Source: a virus. Taken from it: a stretch of 25,506 nt of DNA. How positions within the stretch are numbered: position 1 is the stretch's first letter; each line of letters opens with the position of its first letter. The notes beneath the pieces were generated by a model. That model was not told where the DNA came from, ran no database searches, and saw only the letters and a program-made list of their open reading frames with translations. The position numbers and the translations under genes were made by a program. Location of the stretch: positions 1 through 25,506 of IMG/VR virus record IMGVR_UViG_3300050821_000535; one strand, 5' to 3'. Of the stretch, positions 6,300 to 25,506 are shown one piece after another.

Positions 6300-6397
6300 A
6301 GCGTCTTTTGGACCGACCTATTACGTTTTATCCAAACCCGCGCGCAGCAAACGCTGTGGTGCGGATCAAAAGGAGCGTTGAACATGCGATTAAGTGA
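6296..6397 (+). CDS. putative micro-ORF (33 aa)
   Basis: 33 residues from GTG 6296, whose GTGA overlaps the resolvase stop. It is basic (VKRLLDRPITFYPNPRAANA, then VVRIKRSVEHAIK) and overlaps the first 14 bases of the next gene. Size and lack of a good ribosome-binding site make it doubtful, but it fills an otherwise empty 80-base gap in the same coupled style as its neighbours. Confidence 0.3.
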   Translation: MKRLLDRPITFYPNPRAANAVVRIKRSVEHAIK

Positions 6398-6800
6398 AGC
6401 TATTTTATTGGGGAGCTCGATAATCAAGGCAAAAGGCGGGGCAATCTTCTATCCCGATGGCTCTGGTTGTGCTCTCGGTATGGGGCTCGCGGCCAATGGC
6501 TACACGTGCAATCCGTTTGCTGGCGATGGTGATGCACTTCACCTGTGGCCCTGGCTGAAACAGGCAACGGTCCTTCCTTGCTGTCCGACGTTACTTTCAG
6601 AGGACGGCACAACAGACGTAATGTCCGCCATCGTTCACCTGTTCGACTTTCATGTTTCCGAAGAAAGAGACTGGACGATTGAAGAATTATGCCAATGGTT
6701 GGCCTCAATCGAACCACCAGAACCGGAGTTGCAACGCTCCCAACCATCCCCGGCACAGATGCCTGACCGAAGTGTTTTGCATGAGCTAAAAGTTACATGA
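6384..6800 (+). CDS. hypothetical phage protein with C-A-L-G core
   Basis: 138 residues from ATG 6384, with AGGAG 9 bases upstream; a TTG at 6378 is an alternative start. It begins MRLSEAILLGSSI, then has GCALGMGLAANGY (about residues 31-43), and ends its folded part with WTIEELCQWLASIE before a Pro-rich tail. The opening 'LSEAI.LG' and 'CALG.a...G' resemble a phage orphan family of unknown function. The C-x-G core, followed later by a helix, recalls the genes at 4277 and 6846. A 15-codon ORF (6797-6844) overlaps its stop but is too short to call. Confidence 0.65.
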   Translation: MRLSEAILLGSSIIKAKGGAIFYPDGSGCALGMGLAANGYTCNPFAGDGDALHLWPWLKQATVLPCCPTLLSEDGTTDVMSAIVHLFDFHVSEERDWTIEELCQWLASIEPPEPELQRSQPSPAQMPDRSVLHELKVT

Positions 6801-6845
6801 GACTTCTAGAGCAACGCGCTTTGGTAATCGGGAAGGAAGGATGAG

Positions 6846-7193
6846 ATGACGCCCAAGCCTAAATTGTCGCTCAAGTTTCTGAAGGAGAAGTATCCGCGAC
6901 CACTGCGAGCCATAGATGGATGCAGCATTGACGACCACTATTGCGTGGGCGGGGCGCTCTGCCGCGAAGCAGGGATGCAGGACAAGTCATTCCCGAACGA
7001 TACAGAGATCATGGACGCCCTTTATCGAGTCAACCCACACATTGAGCGCTACGAACTTAACGACAGAGACTACGTAAACCTGATGGGCCAAATTAAAAGC
7101 CTCACGAAGGCCAATGATGCAGGAGACTTCGATTTAGCTTGGCACATCCTCGGAGACTTACTTAAGTGGCGGTCAGGTGGAAGCGCTAGCTGA
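6846..7193 (+). CDS. hypothetical phage protein with Y-C-V-G-G-A core
   Basis: 115 residues from ATG 6846, with GGAAGGATGAG upstream providing the ribosome-binding site. Core motif DDHYCVGGALCREAGM is at about 27-42; the rest is helical (YELNDRDYVNLMGQIKSLTK) and ends FDLAWHILGDLLKW. The pattern 'cysteine strand with small residues, then helix' matches the genes at 4277 and 6384. Function unknown. Confidence 0.65.
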   Translation: MTPKPKLSLKFLKEKYPRPLRAIDGCSIDDHYCVGGALCREAGMQDKSFPNDTEIMDALYRVNPHIERYELNDRDYVNLMGQIKSLTKANDAGDFDLAWHILGDLLKWRSGGSAS

Positions 7194-7223
7194 TGCCGAT
7201 CACCGAGAACTCGGTTTGGGAAA

Positions 7224-7541
7224 ATGGGCTACGGACGATCTGAAACGCCTTGCTACCAGTTTAAGGTTTGGCCCGCGAATCCAGGACTATGCGGCAGGTG
7301 TGCATGGCCTGAGCGCGAGCATAAGGAGAGAGCGATGCAACCACATCAGGAACGGGTAGTAGCTGAGTTGAAAGACCTCACCTCAAAGCGCGAAAGGCTC
7401 GGAACCTTTATCAGTAATCCAACGAACTCAACCTATGCTGCATTGCCCGATGCCGAGAAAACTAGACTGCGCAGGCAGTTCGACATCATGGTTCAGTACG
7501 AAGGCGTGCTTCAAGAGCGAATCGACAACTTCGCGGCGTAG
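7224..7541 (+). CDS. phage protein: Cys/Trp motif joined in frame to 'MQPHQ' helical domain
   Basis: 105 residues from ATG 7224. Residues 1-37 carry CYQF...PGLCGRCAWPEREHK, a small cysteine motif. From M38 (ATG 7335) comes MQPHQERVVAELKDLTSKRE, then LPDAEKTRLRRQ and MVQYEGVLQERIDNF, which looks like a common stand-alone phage protein of about 65-70 residues. A strong site, AAGGAGAG, precedes ATG 7335, so the second part may be made alone, or both forms may exist. The start at 7224 has a weak site and overlaps a 16-codon ORF (7193-7243). Function unknown. Confidence 0.6.
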   Translation: MGYGRSETPCYQFKVWPANPGLCGRCAWPEREHKERAMQPHQERVVAELKDLTSKRERLGTFISNPTNSTYAALPDAEKTRLRRQFDIMVQYEGVLQERIDNFAA

Positions 7542-7568
7542 GTCGGGGAAGGATAGGAACGTGAAGCC

Positions 7569-8648
7569 ATGACACCTAACCCAGACGGGGCAAGCAAGCT
7601 GCGGGAAGAGCTGTGGGCTATGCGTAAGCGTTTGGGACACAATGGAATCGTGCTGGACATTGATGAACTTATTGTGTTCATCGAATCCTCACGCCACGAC
7701 GCCATCGCGGCGACCAAAGAGGCGTGCGCACAGGCCCTTGATGGCTTAGGAGTCACGGAGAACGAGATTACGTTACGCCAGTGGTGCCAAGAAACCATCC
7801 GCGCACTACCCGGCCCCGACCTCTCGGCTGCGAATTGCGGTCAAGGCGGTCACGAATATGGCGATGGCTGCGCGGATTGTAGGGATGCCAAAGCGGCACT
7901 CGCGCTGTTCGCGGGGCAGGTGGCTGGGCACATGTTCGTCGGCTGTCGCGATCCATTCCACGATGGCCGCGTACTATGTGCCTGCAACGCTGTCCTCAAA
8001 GAGGATTACCGCACGAGTAACACTACAGATCAGCAAGCATGGCAGCAACACATCCTCGCCCTCGTTCCGAACCCAAACGCACTCGCGGAGCATGATGCGG
8101 CGCTGGTGGCTCCGTTGCGTGAATTACTGGAGCACGACCGCAGCCAAGTTGCCTTGCACATAACCGCAATTATAAAGGCTGTAAAGTCACGCGATTGGCT
8201 GACGGAAGGCCGCGGACCCTACGAGTGGAACGACGACAACTGGCACAAAGAGTTTGCTGCCGCCGCGACGGAAATATTGGAAGCCGCTGAACCTCTTGAA
8301 AGAATTGCCGCCGACTGGACGGAGTGCTCGCGAAAGAATGAAGATGTAGTTCAAGCGCGCATCAACCTGAAAGCCGACAACGCCGCACTCCGCTTAGAAC
8401 TTGAGCGAGAGCGTAATCCAGCCAAGGTGCAAGCCGTACTAGATTTGCTAGCCGAGCGAGACAAACTCAAGGCGCAGATCGCCAGCGCGGAAGCGAAGGC
8501 GGCACGCGATGGATTTAGCGCTGGTGTTATGCTGGCGCAACTTTATGAGTGCCCCACTTTCGAGTTGGCCTTGAAGGAAACAACGCTAGGCGAAAAGCCG
8601 TGGGCCAAAGCGGAGCAGCAGGCCGAAGCCAAGGAGGGTGCGAAGTGA
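7569..8648 (+). CDS. large hypothetical protein with C-terminal coiled coil
   Basis: 359 residues from ATG 7569, the longest early gene. No domain is recognised. The N-terminus is helical (SKLREELWAMRKRLG); the middle has cysteine/histidine clusters (NCGQGGHEYGDGCADCRD at about 97-114 and CRDPFHDGRVLCACNAVL at about 127-144) that could bind zinc. The last 120 residues form a probable coiled coil (ERIAADWTECSRKNEDV through LLAERDKLKAQIASAEAK). It ends with an Ala/Glu/Lys-rich tail. The stop overlaps GTG 8645. The mosaic look suggests several short phage modules joined together. Function unknown. Confidence 0.65.
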   Translation: MTPNPDGASKLREELWAMRKRLGHNGIVLDIDELIVFIESSRHDAIAATKEACAQALDGLGVTENEITLRQWCQETIRALPGPDLSAANCGQGGHEYGDGCADCRDAKAALALFAGQVAGHMFVGCRDPFHDGRVLCACNAVLKEDYRTSNTTDQQAWQQHILALVPNPNALAEHDAALVAPLRELLEHDRSQVALHITAIIKAVKSRDWLTEGRGPYEWNDDNWHKEFAAAATEILEAAEPLERIAADWTECSRKNEDVVQARINLKADNAALRLELERERNPAKVQAVLDLLAERDKLKAQIASAEAKAARDGFSAGVMLAQLYECPTFELALKETTLGEKPWAKAEQQAEAKEGAK

Positions 8649-8917
8649 TTCCAGTTGACCCAGCAATCGAAGAATTGGAGCTTGTCACCTATGCAAAGGA
8701 TCAGCCCGAGTATATTCCTCTTCCAGTTAGGCGCGATGTGCACGGGGCGGTAGTGACTTGCTGGAAACTTTCATCCATCGAGCGAGTGCGGATGCTATTG
8801 CAGGGACGCTTCTATCTAACGATCCTGACGTTCAATAGTCCGCTGCAACCCATTCGTATCGAAATGGACAAGCCAGAGGCAAGCGCAAGCGGAGGCGGGG
8901 ATACCGAAAGGAGTTAG
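8645..8917 (+). CDS. small phage orphan, 'LTF.sPLQPI' family
   Basis: 90 residues from GTG 8645 in a GTGA overlap with the upstream stop. The recognisable part is VTCWKLSSIERVRMLLQGRF, then YLTILTFNSPLQPIRIEM at about residues 59-76. This Trp-Lys-Leu-Ser ... Glu-Arg ... Gly-Arg ... PLQPI pattern recurs in small phage proteins of unknown function. The tail is disordered (SASGGGDTERS). No catalytic motif is seen. Confidence 0.65.
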   Translation: MIPVDPAIEELELVTYAKDQPEYIPLPVRRDVHGAVVTCWKLSSIERVRMLLQGRFYLTILTFNSPLQPIRIEMDKPEASASGGGDTERS

Positions 8918-8920
8918 CGA

Positions 8921-9394
8921 ATGGCGGAGCGCTGTCCTTGGCACACATTGCATGAACGCTGTAGTCAGCAAAAAGATCATGACGGTCCATGTACGATGGT
9001 TGCTAGAGAAGTGAAGAAGTACATCGAATTGCCTTTCAGTCCTGAGGACGTGAAGAGGGGAGTTAACGAAGTGAGAGAGCTTTGCGGATTCGTAATTGGT
9101 CAAGGTTGCGGCTCTGAGACTCTGCGCTGTAATGCCGCCAAAGGTCACGATGGCTTCCATAGCTATACTTGGGTACAGACCTACGGCGATACTCGCGGTA
9201 CTTACGCCGAGAAAAACTACACCCAGCGCGACCTGGACCTCGCGGTACTGGAGGCGAGGAGTGAGGAAGCGAAACATGCGCGCCAACGTAAGGAGTGGCT
9301 AGAACGCGGTTATGGCGTAGCCTCAGACGAGGAATACATCGCCAACTTGGAGGCCGACCTCCAGAAGCAGAAAGCGGCGATGGGGAAGGCATAG
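8921..9394 (+). CDS. hypothetical protein with two C..H..C knuckles and coiled-coil tail
   Basis: 157 residues from ATG 8921, with AAAGGAG 8 bases upstream. Two similar knuckles are seen: CPWHTLHERCSQQKDHDGPC at residues 5-24, and CGSETLRCNAAKGHDGFH at about 63-80. Both follow the pattern C...C....HdG.(C/H), as in small phage zinc proteins. The C-terminal 50 residues (AVLEARSEEAKHARQRKEW and YIANLEADLQKQKAAM) look like a coiled coil. It may bind nucleic acid or protein; function unknown. Confidence 0.65.
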   Translation: MAERCPWHTLHERCSQQKDHDGPCTMVAREVKKYIELPFSPEDVKRGVNEVRELCGFVIGQGCGSETLRCNAAKGHDGFHSYTWVQTYGDTRGTYAEKNYTQRDLDLAVLEARSEEAKHARQRKEWLERGYGVASDEEYIANLEADLQKQKAAMGKA

Positions 9395-9395
9395 C

Positions 9396-9557
9396 GTGCG
9401 CTGCCCTCACTGTAAGTCGCCTAAGAGCAAGATCGTAATGAGTTCTTACGTCGATTGGGTCATTCTGAGGCTGCGCAGGTGCTTGGACTGTTGCAAAGAA
9501 TATGAGACACAGGAGAAACTAGTACCAAAAGCGGACAAAGTACACCGCATACCTTGA
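9396..9557 (+). CDS. small zinc-ribbon protein, NrdR/Ogr-like finger (53 aa)
   Basis: 53 residues from GTG 9396, one base after the preceding stop. CPHC at residues 3-6 and CLDCC at 29-33 frame a segment with IVMSSYVDWVILRLRR, followed by EYETQE. The spacing, 'RRC.dC..eyeTqE', resembles the zinc ribbon of NrdR and of phage late activators of the Ogr/Delta type, which bind DNA or RNA polymerase. It is the last early gene before the non-coding gap, so a role in switching to late transcription is possible but unproven. Confidence 0.6.
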   Translation: MRCPHCKSPKSKIVMSSYVDWVILRLRRCLDCCKEYETQEKLVPKADKVHRIP

Positions 9558-9583
9558 CTAACCTACATCGAATACCGTATAGC
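9554..9583 (+). promoter_or_regulatory. candidate sigma70-type promoter
   Basis: TTGACT (9554-9559) and TATAGC (9578-9583) are separated by 18 bases, close to the -35 TTGACA and -10 TATAAT consensus. It overlaps the stop of the last early gene and faces the terminase genes, a sensible place for a late promoter. Two mismatches in the -10 keep this uncertain. Confidence 0.3.
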
Positions 9584-10036
9584 TAAGATCAGTTAGGCGC
9601 TCACCGTCAGAGCTGATGTGACGAGGCCACCGAGCTATTAGTCAGATACCCGCTTCCCAAGTCCCACTTAGCAAAAGACAGCAACGCAAAGCCAACTTTG
9701 ACCGTATTCGTGTGCGCGGATTTGAGAGATGGGAATGGCGTGCAATGAGTTCGCCGGCCAGCCGCAAGAAAGAACCTGCACACATGATGGTGATGCAGTT
9801 AACATGACCTTGCAAAGACTAATCAGACCATCCTATCACTTAGGAGAGCAAGGCGAGATCCTCGAGGTAATCTGGGCCGGTGGACCGCTATTGCCGAATT
9901 ACTTGAGGAAGGACGCATTGGCCGGCGATAACATTGGCTCAAACCATTTCGGTGGCAGTCAGCTCTTGAACCCAGGCAAGCACAAACGGTGCAGAGCAAA
10001 GCGCAAGCGATTGGAAGCAGCGCAGACTGAGGGCGA
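9558..10036. other. about 480 bases without a confident gene
   Basis: No frame gives a convincing protein. Short stretches look coding in different frames: 9622-9807 (with SKRQQRKANFDRIRVRGF and FERWEWRAM, but no good start), 9804-10100, and 9803-9928 in a third frame (RRARRDPRGNLGRWTAIAEL). This frame-hopping could reflect decay, a sequencing or assembly indel, or a true leader RNA. A weak structure, GCTC-N7-GAGC, lies near 9600. Confidence 0.5.
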
Positions 10037-13492: not shown

Positions 13493-15496
13493 ATGCCTCC
13501 AGGTCCTCCGACCTCCGTTTCTCCTGACACCGGACCGGCTGAACGTGACTCCGATCAGGGAACAACGCACAGCGATGATTCTAATCAAGCTAAGACACGA
13601 GTCGCGGGTCTCTCGGATGCTGAGATTGTTTCTCAGATCGAACGCTACCGCAACGAAGCGTTCATGCGCGAATACATCATCCGAAATACCTGGCTCGACT
13701 GCTATGGCCAGTACCGTAACAAGCAGGATTTCGATGATAAGGCTCCCTGGCAATCCCGGCTCACTTATGCCAAGGCTCACTCCGCTGTTAAGAACTTTGC
13801 CGCAAATATCATTAGGCTATTACTACAGTCCGAACAATGGGTAACTGTCGATCCGGGATCGTCCTATAACCCGACTATCGACATCAAGCACATCTCCCCA
13901 CTGGTTGAAAAGGTCGTACTAAAGCTAGCCAACAACGCGCATTTCAGAAGCCAGTTCCGAGACGCTTTGGAGTTCGGGGCGGCTTGCGGGTTGGGAGTAT
14001 TGAAGGTTGGCTGGGGCTATCGCAACGTATTCGACTTGTCGGTTAAGGGCGACGATACCGGACCGCTACTCATCCAGAAGAAGCGGAAGGAGGGCCAACT
14101 CTATGTTCAATCGATTGATCCTTTTCATATCTGGTTTGGCCCTCGTACTCGGGACAATAACCGCCTTGATTTTATCATCGAAGAAACCCTGGTGGACGTG
14201 GACGAGCTCAAAGCCCAAAAGGGATTCGAGAATACGAGCGAACTCGAACACGTTGACCGCATTGCCGACCAGATGTACTTCGCGGACCAGGTATACACTC
14301 GTGATTTCGCCCGCTACGATAAGCGGCTCATCCCCGCAGAGCACTACAGAAAGCAAGCATTGCTCTGGGAGTATTGGGGCGACATCATCGACGTACATAC
14401 CCAACAAGTCGTTAAAGCCAACCAGCACATCTTGATTGCCAACCGAACCACCATCCTGAAGTTTGAAGATAACCCTTACTGGGATGGACTACCTCCGTAC
14501 ATCGTGTTCTCTCCGCTGGTAGTGGCCGGCCGGTTTCCCGGCCAAGGCTTGCTGGAAATGAATCTTAGCGTAAAGGATGCCGCCGATCGGACCGCACAGA
14601 AACAGGAAGATCACCTAAGTTTTAGCGTAGTTCCCATGCTGGAGGTGGAAGCAAGTGCCCTGGAGAATCCCGAAGGCGACATGCAGACCGGCGTCCAGCC
14701 GGGGAAGGTCTTCTATAAAAGGGCTGGTGCTGGTCCTAATGCTGTCCAAGGCGTTCAATTCCCCCAGCTTGGCAACTCTTCGTTCAACTTTCTCCAATCA
14801 CTCAACAAGGAGTACGAACGAGGAACTTTCATCACCGAGCAAGCGCAGGGCTTACTTGATGTCAAAGGTGAGACTACTGCTACAGAGATTCAGCAAACCC
14901 AACTCCAGTCCACGCTGATCCTGGCCGACATAGCCGTAATCATCGAGGACAACTGCCTGTCATTTGTTGCTGAAAAGATGTGGAGCAGAGCCTTCCAGTT
15001 TGTCGATGCTACCAGCAATCCGACTTGGACAATGCTGCTTGGAGATGCGGGTAAAGTTCTCGACCAGCTACCCATCCAGACACGGCTTAACCTGATTTGG
15101 GGACGCTACTACTTTGAGGCTCGTGGACTTTCCCGAACCATCGAGCGCCAGCAGAATCTTTCCAAGTACAAAGACCTACTGATGACGTTAGCACAGTTCG
15201 GACCGCAAGCTATCAGCGCAGTAGGGATGAGACTGAACAAGATGTTGAGGCGCGTCGCAGATGCCTATCATCTTCCCGATCCTGATGAGCTATTCGATCC
15301 CAGCGCAGATGATATGGAAGAGCAGTCTAGGCAAGCCGCACTAGCTCAGCAGAATCCTTTCCTTACCGAGATGGCGCGAGCGCATGGCCAGATCGCATCT
15401 TCCCGAGAAGCGAACGATCAGCAGACCTTACAGAAATTGCTGGATGCGGCCATGAGTCTAGGGCAACCCCCATCCGCCCCTGGGCCAGCAGCGTGA
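13493..15496 (+). CDS. portal protein
   Basis: 667 residues from ATG 13493. Portals are dodecameric rings at one capsid vertex through which DNA passes and to which terminase docks. The first 35 residues are disordered, followed by DAEIVSQIERYRNEAFMREY. Then come a conserved-looking APWQSRLTYAKAHSAVKNFA, a predominantly alpha/beta body, and the region KQEDHLSFSVVPMLEVEA through EYERGTFITEQAQGLLDVKG near residues 380-460, typical of wing and stem segments. The C-terminus is Ala/Gln-rich and disordered. Length is near that of P22-type portals. Position right after the terminase and before the scaffold and capsid supports the call. No clear ribosome-binding site precedes the ATG. Confidence 0.82.
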   Translation: MPPGPPTSVSPDTGPAERDSDQGTTHSDDSNQAKTRVAGLSDAEIVSQIERYRNEAFMREYIIRNTWLDCYGQYRNKQDFDDKAPWQSRLTYAKAHSAVKNFAANIIRLLLQSEQWVTVDPGSSYNPTIDIKHISPLVEKVVLKLANNAHFRSQFRDALEFGAACGLGVLKVGWGYRNVFDLSVKGDDTGPLLIQKKRKEGQLYVQSIDPFHIWFGPRTRDNNRLDFIIEETLVDVDELKAQKGFENTSELEHVDRIADQMYFADQVYTRDFARYDKRLIPAEHYRKQALLWEYWGDIIDVHTQQVVKANQHILIANRTTILKFEDNPYWDGLPPYIVFSPLVVAGRFPGQGLLEMNLSVKDAADRTAQKQEDHLSFSVVPMLEVEASALENPEGDMQTGVQPGKVFYKRAGAGPNAVQGVQFPQLGNSSFNFLQSLNKEYERGTFITEQAQGLLDVKGETTATEIQQTQLQSTLILADIAVIIEDNCLSFVAEKMWSRAFQFVDATSNPTWTMLLGDAGKVLDQLPIQTRLNLIWGRYYFEARGLSRTIERQQNLSKYKDLLMTLAQFGPQAISAVGMRLNKMLRRVADAYHLPDPDELFDPSADDMEEQSRQAALAQQNPFLTEMARAHGQIASSREANDQQTLQKLLDAAMSLGQPPSAPGPAA

Positions 15497-18918: not shown

Positions 18919-19875
18919 ATGCCTTCACAGTTGTTCGGTACGAACAGCTTGGGCGGCTTTTTCACTAACAATGAACTGTCGCTCCAGTTGCGCATCAAGG
19001 CCCAACCCCTAAAGCGGTTCCGGCAATTCGTTCAGATCAAAGGAGCCAAGGGAGCACGTCGCGGTAATAAAGTCTACTTCGACAAGCTTCAGCCCATCGT
19101 CACTGCCGGTAGCACTTCGGGCCTCAACGAAACCGCCACCATCCCTGAGAGCAACTTTACCATCAACCAGGGAACCCTAACCATCAGCGAGTATGCGAAC
19201 GCTATCCCGTTCACCAATCAGCTCGTGGCATTGTCTGAGTTGGATGTCGATAACTCGGTCGTGCAAACACTGATGAACGATATGGCGATCACGCTCGACT
19301 CCGTTGCTGGGGCGCAGTTCCAGTCTAGCGATCTCACCTATGTTTGCTCGTTGTCAAACTCGGTGAACATCACTACGAATGGCACCGCATCGACCACAGC
19401 CAGCTCGAACCTCAACGGTACGAACTGGCGTGCGATTTGCGATGACATGCGCAAAAAGAACATCCCGTTCTATGACGGGCAATCCTACGTTGTGATTTGC
19501 AGCGTGGGCGCATTGTCTGGCTTCTTCTCCGATACCCAGACGGGCGGCTTCGTGGACGTGACCAAGTATTCCGAGACGCTTTCGGAGTACCTGTATCGCG
19601 GTGAGGCTGGCCGGTACTACATGGGCCGGTTCGTGGAAGAGACCAACGTCCTGTCTAACGCCCCCGGCACCACCACCACCGCAGGAGAGGCCGTAGCTAT
19701 CGGCTTTGACGCCGTGATGGAAGGTGTTGCCATCCCCGAGGAACTGCGCGAGAAAGTGCCGACTGATTACGGTCGGTCGCAAGGTATCGCGTGGTATGCG
19801 CTTTTGGGATTTCAAAAAATTTGGAACCAGCAAACGGATGGGAGCGAACGAATCGCTCACATCACAAGTAAATAA
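18919..19875 (+). CDS. major capsid protein
   Basis: 318 residues from ATG 18919, with AGAGGAG upstream. It forms the icosahedral shell. The protein begins MPSQLFGTNSLGGFFTNNEL, then has GNKVYFDKLQPIVTAGSTSG, LNETATIPESNFTINQGTLT and ISEYANAIPFTNQLVALSEL, the 'LnEtatiPe...qgtltisEy.n.ipfT..l' pattern of a coat group found in short-tailed and other phages. The later LTYVCSLSNSVNIT and the C-terminal RSQGIAWYALLGFQKIWNQ fit the HK97-like shape. Length and position after the scaffold agree. Confident as capsid; exact coat family is less sure. Confidence 0.85.
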   Translation: MPSQLFGTNSLGGFFTNNELSLQLRIKAQPLKRFRQFVQIKGAKGARRGNKVYFDKLQPIVTAGSTSGLNETATIPESNFTINQGTLTISEYANAIPFTNQLVALSELDVDNSVVQTLMNDMAITLDSVAGAQFQSSDLTYVCSLSNSVNITTNGTASTTASSNLNGTNWRAICDDMRKKNIPFYDGQSYVVICSVGALSGFFSDTQTGGFVDVTKYSETLSEYLYRGEAGRYYMGRFVEETNVLSNAPGTTTTAGEAVAIGFDAVMEGVAIPEELREKVPTDYGRSQGIAWYALLGFQKIWNQQTDGSERIAHITSK

Positions 19876-20491: not shown

Positions 20492-21123
20492 CGCAGATCA
20501 CCCAGACCATGCTTGGGGCGCTCTCCGACAAAGTAGAAACCCTACATCACTGCCACGTCAAAGAAGAACGCGCCTGGATGTTTACTTCCGAGGATACCCA
20601 AACTACCGAACACGAATACCTGAACCTGCTACACGCATTGGTCTATTGCTTGAAGCCGCTAAGCGTTCTCGAAACCGGAACCTTCAAAGGCTACGGCACT
20701 ACAGCCATGGCGAAGGCATTGAAGCGCAACGGAGTCGGCAGGATTGTAGGCGTGGAAATAGAGATGAAAGCCGCGATGTGGGCAGGAGAGATGCTGCGAG
20801 TTAACGGCGTGGCGGATTGGGCCGACATCGTTGTGTCTGACTCTATCCACTATCTCAGTACCACGGGCCGCATCTTCGACTTCGCGCTATTCGATTCACA
20901 GATCCCACTACGCTGCAAAGAGTTGAAGATTTGCCTAGAACGAGGGCTGCTTCGTTCAGGATCTATGGCTTGTCTACACGATACCTCAAGACTTAGGACG
21001 ACCACGCCGGGAGAACCTGACCAACAAGCCAAGGCGCATTGGGACGAGTTCCTTTCGATACCAGGGATTCGCTTTGTGGAGTTTCCGCTAAGTCGCGGAC
21101 TTACCTTGCTACAGGTGGAATGA
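20488..21123 (+). CDS. class I SAM-dependent methyltransferase
   Basis: 211 residues from ATG 20488, in an ATGA overlap with the lipoprotein gene. Motif I is VLETGTFKGYGTTAMAKAL (about residues 62-80), followed by RIVGVEIEMKAAMWAGEML with an acidic end of strand 2, and later FDFALFDSQIPLRCKE, SGSMACLHDTSR and a final strand, LTLLQVE. The pattern is like small-molecule or sugar O-methyltransferases (the CmcI / Methyltransf_24 type) rather than DNA methylases, as no DPPY/NPPF motif is present. The neighbouring spike and glycosyltransferase suggest methylation of a surface sugar or virion glycan. Fold is confident, substrate unknown. Confidence 0.75.
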   Translation: MTQITQTMLGALSDKVETLHHCHVKEERAWMFTSEDTQTTEHEYLNLLHALVYCLKPLSVLETGTFKGYGTTAMAKALKRNGVGRIVGVEIEMKAAMWAGEMLRVNGVADWADIVVSDSIHYLSTTGRIFDFALFDSQIPLRCKELKICLERGLLRSGSMACLHDTSRLRTTTPGEPDQQAKAHWDEFLSIPGIRFVEFPLSRGLTLLQVE

Positions 21124-21629
21124 AGCCCAACGGGGAACTCAAGAAATTCTCGGCAGTAACCTCCGGTCGATCCTCCATTATCAGCGGGGCGAAGTTTACT
21201 CGTGGCTTTGTGATCCGGCCCGAGCAGATGCTTTCGCTTCTTCACGATACTCATCCCAACTTACCGATCCCCCACGATGCGCACTTTCAGGGAATCGGGT
21301 TCGAGGATGAAGGGGTAGACAGTCTGATCCAATTCTTCTTCACCTCACAGACGGCTCCGTGGGAGCACTGCGTCGCCCTAAAGCCGCAACTATTCTTTGG
21401 CCTGTTGGTCGATTTGGCTGATGGGCTCTTGCCGAAAGATTCAGAGCTAGACGGAATCGAGATCAGCAAGAACTTTACCGTGTTGATGCTGAGAGTCAAA
21501 TCGTCCCACTGGCCTCCAGCGCCAACGGATGCAATGCCGCTTTATCACCTCAGATACGACCTAGGGAGACTTACACTTGTCGATCCATCGAAAGCTATTG
21601 AAGGCGATAGGCGCATTAGGATTAATTAG
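21120..21629 (+). CDS. hypothetical protein in surface-modification module
   Basis: 169 residues from ATG 21120, overlapping the methyltransferase stop (ATGA). No domain is recognised. It has mixed alpha/beta features (FTRGFVIRPEQMLSLLHDTH, then HFQGIGFEDEGVDSLIQFFF, KNFTVLMLRVKSSHW) and ends VDPSKAIEGDRRIRIN. Its last 53 bases encode the signal peptide of the spike gene in another frame. Position suggests a spike- or glycan-related role, unproven. Confidence 0.6.
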   Translation: MKPNGELKKFSAVTSGRSSIISGAKFTRGFVIRPEQMLSLLHDTHPNLPIPHDAHFQGIGFEDEGVDSLIQFFFTSQTAPWEHCVALKPQLFFGLLVDLADGLLPKDSELDGIEISKNFTVLMLRVKSSHWPPAPTDAMPLYHLRYDLGRLTLVDPSKAIEGDRRIRIN

Positions 21630-24012
21630 CCTTCTGCCAGTTCTGGCAATGGCGCAAGGCAACACCTACCAGCCACAACTGATTACCGGCAACGGCGCAC
21701 CTGGTACGGGAGCTTTTCAAACCTGCGCGATCTACCAGGAATACATCGACGTATCGACGGGGAACAAATGGCACTGCCTGCCTGACAATAGCGGGCAGCA
21801 TGGATCATGGGTAGCCAATCTCAACCCCTCTTCCCTCAACTCCATCATCTTCGTGGATGGAGTGACGTACCCGCTCAACTCCACGGGATTGACCAATGCT
21901 TGTACGGCAGCAGGAGCAAGTGGAACGGTAGGGATTAGCAAGCCTATTGTGATGACGGCGAATGTAACGTGTAGTTCTGCCATTCAATTCTTTGCTGGCG
22001 GAACTATCACCACAACAGGTTGGACACTCACGCTTAATGGCACGATCTTCTCTCCTGACGTGCAGATTTTATTGGGTACGGGAAGTATTGTTCTCGGGTC
22101 GAATGGTGCCGGGCCGATCATGGCAACGTGGTTTCCAGGTTCCGATTGTGGAGCACGCATCAATACCGCCGATGTAGCAACCGGAAACACCCCGCGTGAA
22201 ATTTGGGTGGATCAAGCGTGCGGTTCTGTTTGGACAACCGCTGTCGTGATTGGAGCAAGCGCCCACAATTACCATACCTTGCGGTTTATTCAAGGGGGAA
22301 CGTATACGACCTCAGCGGGTATCTCCTCCGCATCAGTAGGTGGAACGATACTTGGCGTGGCCCAATCAATCGCAGGCGGCTCAGGCATCAAAGCTGGGCC
22401 TACGGTATTGCAGGCTGCAAATGGCAGCAATTTAGCAGCGCTCGTATCAGTCAACGGCGTGGCTGAGCTATCAGTACGTGACCTCATCCTAGATGGGAAC
22501 AAAAGCAACAATCCCACTGGGGGAGTCTGCCTTCTTGTCACTGGAGGAGCTTTCCGGTACGACTCCGAAAGTGTCGTATACCAGAATTGCTCGACTCATG
22601 GCGCTTGGCTTAATTCCTCTTGCTGTGCGTCGTTCCGGTCGTCGTTTTTCGGCAATAACAGCATAGACGGTATCTTTGCCAATGCCAGTGCGGATATTTT
22701 CGTTGGGGAAGCTACGCAGTTCAACATCCAAGGGATTGCTCCCACGGTCAACACTACTTCCACGACAATCACGGCGACGAGCGGAAGCTGGAGCACGGAT
22801 TCCTCGCTCGTCGGCACTACGGTACGGGTGAACAACGCTTTCAACTGCACCGTGGCGGCTATTCCCAGCACCACGACGATTACGATTGGCCAATGCTGGA
22901 ACTATCCTGCAGGAACGGCGGCAACTCTCAGTACACTCACAGGCGTATCGATGGCGTGGGGCGACAACATCGAGTTGGTGAACTCGCCCACCATGCGAAT
23001 CAATCATGCCGATATAGCACAGGCTCAGATGGATGGCATCTTCGCTCGTGGGACTTCGGGCGGCTCTGCCAACCTAATCAATGAAGAAATGATCGGTCCT
23101 GCAATCGAGATGGGCAACTATCAGAACGATATCGAAATTGTCGGATATGACACGGTAGGCGCGGCCACAACGTCAATCCTAAACAACATTCAGGGGATCA
23201 CTTTCATTGGCGACACCAACCGCACTAATAATATCTATAGCTCAATCAAGATGGTGGATGGTGGTCTAAGCAATATCTCCGGGCTTTCTTGCGGCGCTGG
23301 TCCGGTAGGGCATCTATCGAAAGCGTGCCTAGAGTTCACAGAAACAGCCGGTGGCCGAATGACGGCCAATCAGGTTTCCGCAAATATGATAAATTCAGCG
23401 GCCTTTGGAACTGCCGGGATAATTGACTCTACCGCAAACGGCGCAACGGGACTGCAAATCGCAGTTCATGGCGGCGGCAGTTCGGGCGCAACACTAGACC
23501 TGTTCGACCAAACAGCAGCGGCAGCGAACCCACACAAATTCTTCCGTGTGGCGGGTGGAACTCTTCAGATTGTGAATAGCTCTTTCGGGGCCGTGATCCA
23601 GCAGTTAACCGATAGCGGTAATTTGATGCCGGTAGTGATCGCCGCGAATCAAGGCACCGCACTGAGCAATGGAGCCATTTCTCTCGGCACTGGTTGGGGA
23701 ACTGGCGCAAGCGCGGCGGTTTGCACAGGACCGGGATGGACGAATACTGGCTGCTTCACGATTACGTCTGGTAGCGCGTCATTCTCAGCGGCTCCTACTG
23801 TTACGGTAACTCTTCCAAATACGATTCCGTCTGCGAGCACCCCTTGCACGCTTGATGTCCACGCAATCACCGGAGCAGGCGGCGCAATCATCTTCGATGA
23901 GACGACATACTCATTCTCGGCTCCGGTTTTCACGGCCACGACTTCTACGGGTGCGGCTTTCACTCCAGCAGTAACCGAGACTTACAAAGTAGTGCTGCGG
24001 TGCGGACCATGA
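21577..24012 (+). CDS. tail-spike-like parallel beta-helix protein with N-terminal signal peptide
   Basis: 811 residues from TTG 21577, with GGGAG 7 bases upstream, beginning 53 bases inside the previous gene. Residues 1-26 look like a Sec signal: MSIHRKLLKAIGALGLISLL, then PVLAMA with cleavage after A26. Next is TCAIYQEYIDVSTGNKWHCL, and a long Ser/Thr/Gly/Asn-rich region with repeated short strands, including AELSVRDLILDGNKSNN near 300, the hallmark of pectate-lyase-type beta helices. The last 130 residues (TVTLPNTIPSASTPCTLDVH, then ETYKVVLRCGP) look like a beta-sandwich. Spikes bind or degrade surface glycans. A secretion signal on such a protein is unusual. Alternative: a secreted, host-derived surface protein. 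Confidence 0.7.
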   Translation: MSIHRKLLKAIGALGLISLLPVLAMAQGNTYQPQLITGNGAPGTGAFQTCAIYQEYIDVSTGNKWHCLPDNSGQHGSWVANLNPSSLNSIIFVDGVTYPLNSTGLTNACTAAGASGTVGISKPIVMTANVTCSSAIQFFAGGTITTTGWTLTLNGTIFSPDVQILLGTGSIVLGSNGAGPIMATWFPGSDCGARINTADVATGNTPREIWVDQACGSVWTTAVVIGASAHNYHTLRFIQGGTYTTSAGISSASVGGTILGVAQSIAGGSGIKAGPTVLQAANGSNLAALVSVNGVAELSVRDLILDGNKSNNPTGGVCLLVTGGAFRYDSESVVYQNCSTHGAWLNSSCCASFRSSFFGNNSIDGIFANASADIFVGEATQFNIQGIAPTVNTTSTTITATSGSWSTDSSLVGTTVRVNNAFNCTVAAIPSTTTITIGQCWNYPAGTAATLSTLTGVSMAWGDNIELVNSPTMRINHADIAQAQMDGIFARGTSGGSANLINEEMIGPAIEMGNYQNDIEIVGYDTVGAATTSILNNIQGITFIGDTNRTNNIYSSIKMVDGGLSNISGLSCGAGPVGHLSKACLEFTETAGGRMTANQVSANMINSAAFGTAGIIDSTANGATGLQIAVHGGGSSGATLDLFDQTAAAANPHKFFRVAGGTLQIVNSSFGAVIQQLTDSGNLMPVVIAANQGTALSNGAISLGTGWGTGASAAVCTGPGWTNTGCFTITSGSASFSAAPTVTVTLPNTIPSASTPCTLDVHAITGAGGAIIFDETTYSFSAPVFTATTSTGAAFTPAVTETYKVVLRCGP

Positions 24013-24118: not shown

Positions 24119-25506
24119 TTGACTTGGAGAATTGACGCAAGCGAAGGCAACGAGACGGCGAAGATTCACGACAGAATAGCCCCATTTGTTTACGGCCACG
24201 GTGTAGATCTTGGCTGCGGCTGCTGGAAGCTGAAGGTTGAAAAGAGCAGAGACCATTCCTGTATAGGCGTGGATATGGGCATGTCCACGTTCGCCTGTAA
24301 GGAGGCAGATGTTATCGCGGACGTGTCTAACCTTCCCTTCAAGGATGAGCTATTCGATTACGTCTACTCCTCCCATACGCTTGAGGATATGCACTATAGC
24401 GAAGCTGTGCTTATCGAGTGGTGGAGGATTCTCAAGCCCGGAGGCCGGCTGATCCTCTATCTGCCGCTGACAAAGAAAGTAGCTAAGGAATTGGGCCGCG
24501 AGGATTGGGAGAATTTCTATCCCAACAAAGGAGAAGAGGGCGCAAACGTCTACCATGCCAAAGATTTCTATCCCCAAGAGATTCGAGATGCGATAGGCAA
24601 GATCGGGCACGCGGAGGTACTAGCCGATGAAATCAGGGGCGACAAAGACGAGTACAGCTTCCTGCTCGTATTCCTAAAGTGCGCATCTACTGCAAGTCCT
24701 GTTAAGGGTATAGCTACTCAATCTCTCGGAAAGCGAGCTTTGGTGGTTCGCTACGGAGCTATCGGCGATTTCATACAAACTGTTCCAGTGCTTAAAAAGC
24801 TCAAGGAAGAGGGCTATCACGTCACTGTCAACGGTTCGGAAACGGCCAAAGACGTTCTGAAATACTGCCCCTACGTCGATGAAATAGCCGTACAGATCAA
24901 GGACTACGTTCCCAACAGGGGCGTGGTGTCAGGACCGCTATTCGATTACTGGGTTGAATTGGCAAAGAAGTACGACAAGTTCATTAACCTGACCGGGGCA
25001 GCGGAAGAGACGCTGCTGGTCCCCGATAACAGACTGATGCACATGATGGAGCACATTCGGACGAAGCACCCCGAACTGAACGAAGAGAGCGTGTTCTATA
25101 ACGCGGTACGGACGGTGCAGCAGCAAGTGGGGGAGACCAATTACTATGACAACCACCTTGCCAAAGCCGGATATGCCGACAGGGGACTTAACGGGGAGCT
25201 GTTTTTCAGCGAGCAGGAAGAAGTCATGGCCCAAGGTTTTAGGGACAAATATCCGGGCCGCTTTATTGTCATGTGGGTACTCTCAGGTTCGAGTTACCAC
25301 AAGCGGTATCCTTACTTTCAACAGGTCGCCCAAGAGCTCGTAATCAAGAATCCCGATGTGTTACTTATCTCTGTAGGAGATGCCGAATGTGCGCTGATCG
25401 AGAGAAGCGAATCGAACCGCTATCTACCCAGGGCGGGGAAGTGGCAACTCAGAACCAGTTTAGTGATGACCAAATATGTAGACTTAGTGATTGGTCCAGA
25501 GACTGG
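24119..25506 (+). CDS. methyltransferase-GT9 glycosyltransferase fusion (3' end outside window)
   Basis: Open frame of 462 codons from TTG 24119 (AGGAGA six bases upstream) to the window edge; no stop is seen. Residues 1-190 are a class I methyltransferase: GVDLGCG at 28-34, DVSNLPFKDELFDYVYSSHT at 68-87 and WWRILKPGGRLILYLP at 101-116. From about 206 a family 9 glycosyltransferase starts: RALVVRYGAIGDFIQTVPVL, later FIVMWVLSGSSYHKRYPYFQ and, at the edge, DLVIGPET, matching the nucleotide-sugar-binding half of ADP-heptose transferases. The protein would add and methylate a sugar, on host LPS or on the virion. Domain calls are confident; partner and substrate are unknown. Confidence 0.82.
   Translation, partial: MTWRIDASEGNETAKIHDRIAPFVYGHGVDLGCGCWKLKVEKSRDHSCIGVDMGMSTFACKEADVIADVSNLPFKDELFDYVYSSHTLEDMHYSEAVLIEWWRILKPGGRLILYLPLTKKVAKELGREDWENFYPNKGEEGANVYHAKDFYPQEIRDAIGKIGHAEVLADEIRGDKDEYSFLLVFLKCASTASPVKGIATQSLGKRALVVRYGAIGDFIQTVPVLKKLKEEGYHVTVNGSETAKDVLKYCPYVDEIAVQIKDYVPNRGVVSGPLFDYWVELAKKYDKFINLTGAAEETLLVPDNRLMHMMEHIRTKHPELNEESVFYNAVRTVQQQVGETNYYDNHLAKAGYADRGLNGELFFSEQEEVMAQGFRDKYPGRFIVMWVLSGSSYHKRYPYFQQVAQELVIKNPDVLLISVGDAECALIERSESNRYLPRAGKWQLRTSLVMTKYVDLVIGPET

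Follow-up and report, generated by a model that had tools for sequence, protein, structure and literature searches.

How does a protein of the tail spike or fibre class come to carry an export signal, when tailed phages package in the cytoplasm and textbook tail assembly is cytoplasmic as well? The question is raised by the gene at 21577-24012 (+) of the window analysed here, a 25,506-base linear IMG/VR record from a podovirus-like soil phage that encodes an SU10-like portal protein (13493-15496, +; PF23899, E 3.9e-22), a terminase and an HK97-type capsid (major capsid protein at 18919-19875, +; Pfam PF25209, phrog_1357). A preliminary description of this DNA had taken the product for a spike-like beta-helix protein with a Sec signal, a combination that it called unexpected on the premise that virion spikes have no such signals. 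Our analysis upholds the signal, both by rule and by its presence in relatives, and the assignment to the spike class, but a beta-helix fold was not confirmed, and the premise itself is now called into question by a wider survey of related phages. With a confidence just above even, we read the gene product as a Sec-exported, disulfide-bonded protein of the tail spike/fibre class that would dock to virions when the cell lyses.

The gene and its signal peptide

The gene is an uninterrupted ORF of 811 codons (811 aa) that begins with TTG, with the Shine-Dalgarno match AGGGAG (21563-21568, +) read from the sequence 8 nt 5' of the start codon. The N-terminus of the product, MSIHRKLLKAIGALGLISLLPVLAMA|QGN, consists of a basic n-region, a hydrophobic core and the site AMA|Q, and by our heuristic rule residues 1-26 (21577-21654, +) form an n-h-c signal peptide with a signal peptidase I site that is retained by the relatives in records G001, G002, G003 and G004. 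The rule was calibrated on a stretch of E. coli K-12. A capsid profile run against the genome collection, with the host of the window phage in view, found one distant Desulfobacterales contig only, and an acidobacterial host, considered at first, was dropped. In E. coli K-12 the rule was positive for 9/13 secreted, 1/17 cytosolic and 4/8 inner-membrane proteins, with the classes assigned by us from annotation, and it was positive for none of the 59 ORFs of phage Bas95; it also flags some glycosyltransferases. A stricter first version singled out 21577-24012 among the 33 window genes, and the relaxed version adds one doubtful positive, 6378-6800. Since the relatives retain it, the signal is not a chance resemblance, and on sequence evidence it is genuine and of the classic Sec type.

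Little else in the protein could be recognised directly. Pfam, PHROGs and PDB sequence searches with it gave nothing usable, the phage and plasmid collections held no match, and two AlphaFold models made without an alignment had mean pLDDT values of 34.5 and 34.2, too low to judge whether the protein has the elongated, usually trimeric beta-structure of tail spikes and fibres. An identical protein is present in a second metagenome (IMGVR_UViG_3300021168_000103).

As the preliminary description had pointed out, the TTG start lies inside the upstream gene (21120-21629, +), which encodes a 169-aa protein of the 'GELKKF' family; its ORF ends at 21629, giving an overlap of 53 nt. In the window and in G003 the first 18 signal codons overprint, in another frame, the conserved 3' end of this gene, and in G001 fewer signal codons are overprinted and the start is ATG. 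Across 21577-21629 the alternative frame supplies the n-region and half of the h-region, making this a partly overprinted signal peptide. The signal is nevertheless independent of the overlap, because the carriers of the same N-terminal module in G002 and G004 have ordinary ATG-started signals with Shine-Dalgarno-like matches. In an alignment of the 'GELKKF' family from 8 loci, some with the spike cassette and some lacking it, the C-terminus is kept either way, least in L012/G004. The insertion point of the cassette is the stop codon of the upstream gene; in phages that have no cassette, an upstream gene with a similar C-terminus is followed directly by a methyltransferase/GT9 gene.

In the window, that gene (24119-25506, +), a methyltransferase joined to a GT9-like glycosyltransferase with a homologue in L004, lies downstream of the cassette and runs off the end. 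The same fusion occurs at L004:14443-16314, also adjacent to capsid genes, and distant relatives carry separate glycosyltransferase- and methyltransferase-like genes there, which suggests glycan modification of the capsid or of the host surface.

A constant N-terminal module with interchangeable bodies

Relatives were located through capsid and portal searches. Two of them, G003 and G001, encode a protein at the same place whose first 98 residues are 83% and 64% identical to those of the window protein, and beyond residue 98 their bodies are unrelated to the window's. A profile of the 98 residues matched in 5 of the 15 records searched, once in each, with single remote copies in G004 (E 3e-10) and G002 (E 1e-5) that follow the capsid gene at a distance of ~12 kb. 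Whether relatives keep the signal had been proposed as a check, and all four relatives that share the module do; signal and invariant Cys pair occur together in all five distinct module carriers, at two genomic positions.

The module proper spans residues 27-98 (21655-21870, +) and includes the invariant pair C50/C67 (alignments A2 and A4). Over codons 28-98, dN between the window and G003 is 0.18 and dS 1.22, so that purifying selection acts on the constant module. DNA homology to G003/G001 ends at 21869/21873 and resumes at 24120/24116, and since the break falls at the border between module and body, the body (21871-24012, +), which holds 16 of the 18 Cys and is presumed to be the receptor-binding or glycan-binding part, is a swapped cassette. 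The window protein thus has the constant N-terminal part and variable C-terminal body that mark tail spikes and fibres. Its gene is flanked by capsid-module and connector-type genes, placing it among the virion genes of a tailed phage. The slot that it occupies adjoins the capsid genes, and the slot after the ejection-type proteins lies past the end of the window.

The module matched none of the solved head-binding domains, Pfam or PHROG families. An hhalign comparison of A4 with the head-binding domain alignment A8 gave a probability of 9.7 over 16 columns, and we do not equate the two; A7, considered for the same role, gave a probability of 1.5 against A8, and its profile found nothing significant in the PDB. 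The whole proteins G001a, G004a, G002c and G002a had no match among phages, and two weak Burkholderia phage matches to the C-terminus of G001a, considered as a common fibre end, were not used.

Cysteine content of the signal-bearing proteins

Beyond the assigned cut, the number of Cys residues is even in 29 of 31 signal-bearing proteins, against a baseline of 73/130 (~56%) among non-signal ORFs with at least two Cys (p about 5e-6). This set of 31 omits near-identical copies (L003/L072, L096, L105, L119), adjacent genes that are cut short in L107, L115 and L122, and small signal-bearing genes of non-fibre type. With the signal included, the total is even in 22/31; leaving out the signal's Cys turns each of the nine odd totals even. 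The two odd mature counts belong to G002c and L122b, and for the latter the cut assigned by the rule is probably too late.

The signal-bearing proteins are also richer in Cys. In the motif survey described below they exceed the signal-less ones (Mann-Whitney p 0.0025, for 11 signal-bearing and 8 signal-less proteins, with L105 and two open loci left out), and ten virion proteins of G004 have 9 Cys in 3,679 residues (0.24%), a fraction that reaches about 2% in the exported set. The signals themselves differ in sequence yet keep the n-h-c pattern, mostly with (A/G)|Q sites. Parity and richness together fit extracytoplasmic, disulfide-paired chains, and the prediction that such proteins are exported, cleaved and folded with disulfides is well supported by their sequences.

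Relationship to tail fibres and tailspikes

Several signal-bearing proteins can be tied to known virion proteins. The G002 relative that carries the window's module (L065:7331-11755) ends in tail-fibre sequence, matching phrog_22682 (E 8.4e-5) and phrog_4209 (2e-4) when a 130-aa fragment is searched, the whole protein giving no PHROG at E 0.1. Among more distant capsid relatives, G009 has signal-bearing genes in a slot that its sister G011 fills with a PHROG tail fibre gene lacking a signal (E 2.2e-15), and G009a matches the structural protein family phrog_697 (E 5.5e-12), with parts of it matching proteins in 208 phage records, several of them annotated as structural or tail fibre.

In three further soil phages, L107, L108 and L115, the residues directly after the cleavage site form a tailspike head-binding domain. 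L107 matches PDB 7eeq (E 5.5e-6) and L115 matches 9vyg (2.8e-4), and the domain of L108 was recognised through alignment A8, whose profile matches 7eeq at E 6e-17. The L107 domain matches 36 phage records, including the tail spike of PBR31 at 55% identity. Ten of the 36 were checked, of which nine carry a coding gene at that place; in 9/9 of these genes the head-binding domain begins near Met1, with no signal and 0-0.9% Cys. Met1 of the known domains aligns with the cleavage site of L107/L108/L115. Since known phages have the domain near Met1 with no signal before it, the signal of L107/L108/L115 is a clean addition, and its cleavage would restore the canonical N-terminus.

Distribution of signals in related phages

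In the window and G001-G004, where 230 ORFs of at least 90 aa were called and those found in three or more records were counted as conserved, none of the 87 conserved genes was signal-like. Among the record-specific genes of the late cassettes, 13/14 were; these 14 were delimited by us after inspection, and in this and the other counts N-terminal homology leaves the proteins less than fully independent. The exception, G001d, has no signal, and its L011 homologue has one. Of two homologous small late proteins (35% identity over 108 aa, E 3e-13), L062:15980-16618 (-) lacks a signal and L011:7388-7828 has one, which makes them a natural gain/loss pair.

In G002, G003 and G004 the signal-bearing genes come after Cys-free ejection-type proteins, mostly with 4-nt overlaps, and their products are the sole large record-specific proteins there. 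G002 and G004 encode no other evident receptor-binding candidate, and G003 has a short, signal-less one of 226 aa elsewhere. Among the 42 capsid loci, the fibre slot was read in part of them; G009 genes bear signals in the slot where the genes of G010, G011 and G014 do not, the slot in these distant records being argued from position only because their ejection-type proteins show no homology to those of the clade.

A survey with motif A6, seeded from two signal-bearing proteins that share it (G004a and L010b), found 22 viral loci, 2 of them open at the 5' end. A signal is present in 12 of the other 20 and absent in 8; the 12 include the near-identical L104 and L105, as well as L119, which is G004a again. 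In several of these loci the signal-bearing genes stand in tandem arrays after Cys-free proteins. L122:1937-6007 and L115:2315-6242 each hold two or three consecutive signal-bearing genes of fibre type, the last ones cut by the ends of the stretches. The signal of L108a could be of the lipoprotein type. L010 encodes a propeller-like protein with no signal, at 6728-9595, which has a propeller/glycosidase-like character and appears to be an in-frame fusion to a connector-type gene that is separate in relatives.

Small signal-bearing proteins were also seen outside the fibre class. A 96-aa protein of record G003 (L068:8563-8871, -), encoded opposite the late genes and directly before signal-bearing fibre genes, has an HNH-nuclease-like motif and is possibly a periplasmic nuclease. 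L068:2097-2465 (-) and L063:3497-3832 (+) are small, signal-bearing, moron-like proteins opposite late genes.

Alternative explanations

The main rival, unlikely in our estimate and still a serious contender, has the protein exported and kept off the virion altogether. Made late, it would either act in the envelope or outside the cell, covering or cutting back glycans or receptors of the host surface, or leave the lysing cell as a free depolymerase or decoy; in both cases it would prevent superinfection or adsorption to debris. Such a protein would have just the real Sec signal and disulfide signature seen here, and the adjoining methyltransferase/GT9 gene would suit it. Two papers offer parallels: lambda lom, a signal-bearing gene between the spike and fibre genes (PMC12309495), and the signal-bearing, tail-hydrolase-like esterase encoded by PBR31 (PMC10975493). 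However, this explanation leaves G002, G003 and G004 without an evident receptor-binding protein other than the 226-aa candidate of G003, and in L107, L108 and L115 a signal stands in front of a head-binding domain, in G002 in front of tail-fibre repeats. The window protein, which has 811 aa and lies in a late-type region, may or may not be of the superinfection-exclusion or lysogenic-conversion kind, whose members are small and expressed early or from prophages. Masking of the host surface, one option of the preliminary description, is possible but less economical than a role on the virion.

It is improbable that the hydrophobic N-terminus goes unused for export, the spike being assembled in the cytoplasm as textbooks have it and the segment being tolerated or aiding tail attachment. 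The signals vary in sequence and hold to their pattern and cleavage sites, Cys parity becomes even only when the signal is removed, and the cleavage site falls where canonical spikes have their Met1. A merely tolerated signal, which had been suggested earlier, also sits poorly with its retention in 5/5 module carriers and with even mature Cys counts, which fit real cleavage and oxidation.

Capture of a host gene for a secreted protein, likewise suggested earlier, or of a lysogenic-conversion gene, is more improbable still. Bacterial secreted tailspike-like proteins do exist, as PMC7949094 describes for WceF with its Tat signal. Against such an origin, the module profile found 47 pattern stretches in contigs of the genome collection, of which none was confirmed as a cellular relative; the window protein had no match in the plasmid collection; the GC content of the gene is 0.536 against 0.535 for the rest of the window; the relatives lie in phage late operons with 4-nt overlaps; bodies are swapped behind a constant module; and some relatives contain phage tail-fibre or tailspike sequence.

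A true start after residue 24, at Met25, which would do away with the signal peptide, is scarcely credible, as this in-frame ATG of the window and G003 is missing from G001, G002 and G004, inspection of the window sequence found no Shine-Dalgarno before it, in the relatives of G002 and G004 the signal plainly starts at ATG, and a search for homologues that lack the first 26 residues and share a later start found none, no later start being conserved.

Proposed pathway and implications

Our preferred reading, a spike exported through Sec and joined to virions at lysis, agrees with the earlier suggestion that the phage exports this protein, which fits because the signal is genuine and the protein is of the spike class. 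Expressed late, the gene would supply a Sec signal, a constant N-terminal module and an interchangeable body. The protein would cross the inner membrane via Sec, be cut at AMA|Q and fold in the envelope with paired disulfides; at lysis it would meet virions assembled in the cytoplasm, and the conserved module would dock it there as a receptor- or polysaccharide-binding spike. P22 tailspikes attach to heads in vitro. Given cytoplasmic packaging, the presence of virion-docking or fibre sequence behind the signals, and the lack of another evident receptor-binding candidate in G002 and G004, docking at lysis or later requires the fewest assumptions. For the window protein itself we infer a virion location and post-lysis docking by analogy, since no known docking domain was recognised in its module and its slot adjoins the capsid genes.

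More tentatively, and with somewhat less than even confidence, we propose that several lineages of tailed soil phages send their receptor-binding spikes and fibres through Sec, have disulfides formed in them in the periplasm or envelope, and finish building the virion only when the cell lyses or later. In this scheme the signal would be a bolt-on to canonical head-binding domains, and the bodies would be freely swapped behind it. If this is true, assembly would take place in two compartments: capsid and tail would come from the cytoplasm and spikes from a compartment with oxidising conditions, and the two would be joined at lysis. Spikes could be hardened by disulfides, and those of co-infecting phages could be exchanged in the lysate. 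Signal absence has been taken as support for the phage origin of diversity-generating retroelement proteins (PMC6199706), and annotation rules that use it as a mark of phage origin would reject real receptor-binding proteins. Conversely, a signal peptide, an even Cys count and a position after ejection-type proteins would together be a simple mark for receptor-binding proteins in uncultured soil phages.

Comparison with known systems

Our literature search, which covered few subscription journals, found no tail fibre or spike of a tailed phage with a Sec signal. Among the closest counterparts are podovirus tail spikes with a head-binding domain (7eeq, 9vyg and that of Xanthomonas phage PBR31), which resemble the window protein in late-region position, conserved N-terminal part and variable body. 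With L107/L108/L115 they have even the head-binding domain in common, a homology that our comparisons did not find for the window module. These spikes differ in starting at Met1 with no signal, in the nine genes checked, and in being poor in Cys. The pIII protein of inoviruses binds the receptor as part of the virion and is produced with a Sec signal and with disulfides, features that we propose for the window protein as well; inoviruses, however, assemble at the inner membrane, whereas the window phage is tailed, with portal, terminase and HK97-type capsid, and the C-terminus of the window protein (..TYKVVLRCGP) is not a membrane helix and provides no anchor.

WceF of Pantoea stewartii (PMC7949094), the product of an exopolysaccharide gene, shares with the window protein the combination of a tailspike-like class and an export signal, but it is encoded on a bacterial chromosome and bears a Tat signal, in contrast to the Sec type and phage late region of the window gene. 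The window gene, which lies in a virus record and whose module found no confirmed cellular relative in the genome collection, is not of the WceF type. Lom of lambda (PMC12309495) comes like the window protein from a signal-bearing gene beside spike and fibre genes; it is, however, an outer-membrane beta-barrel expressed in lysogens, whereas the window protein is large, Cys-paired and of a modular fibre type.
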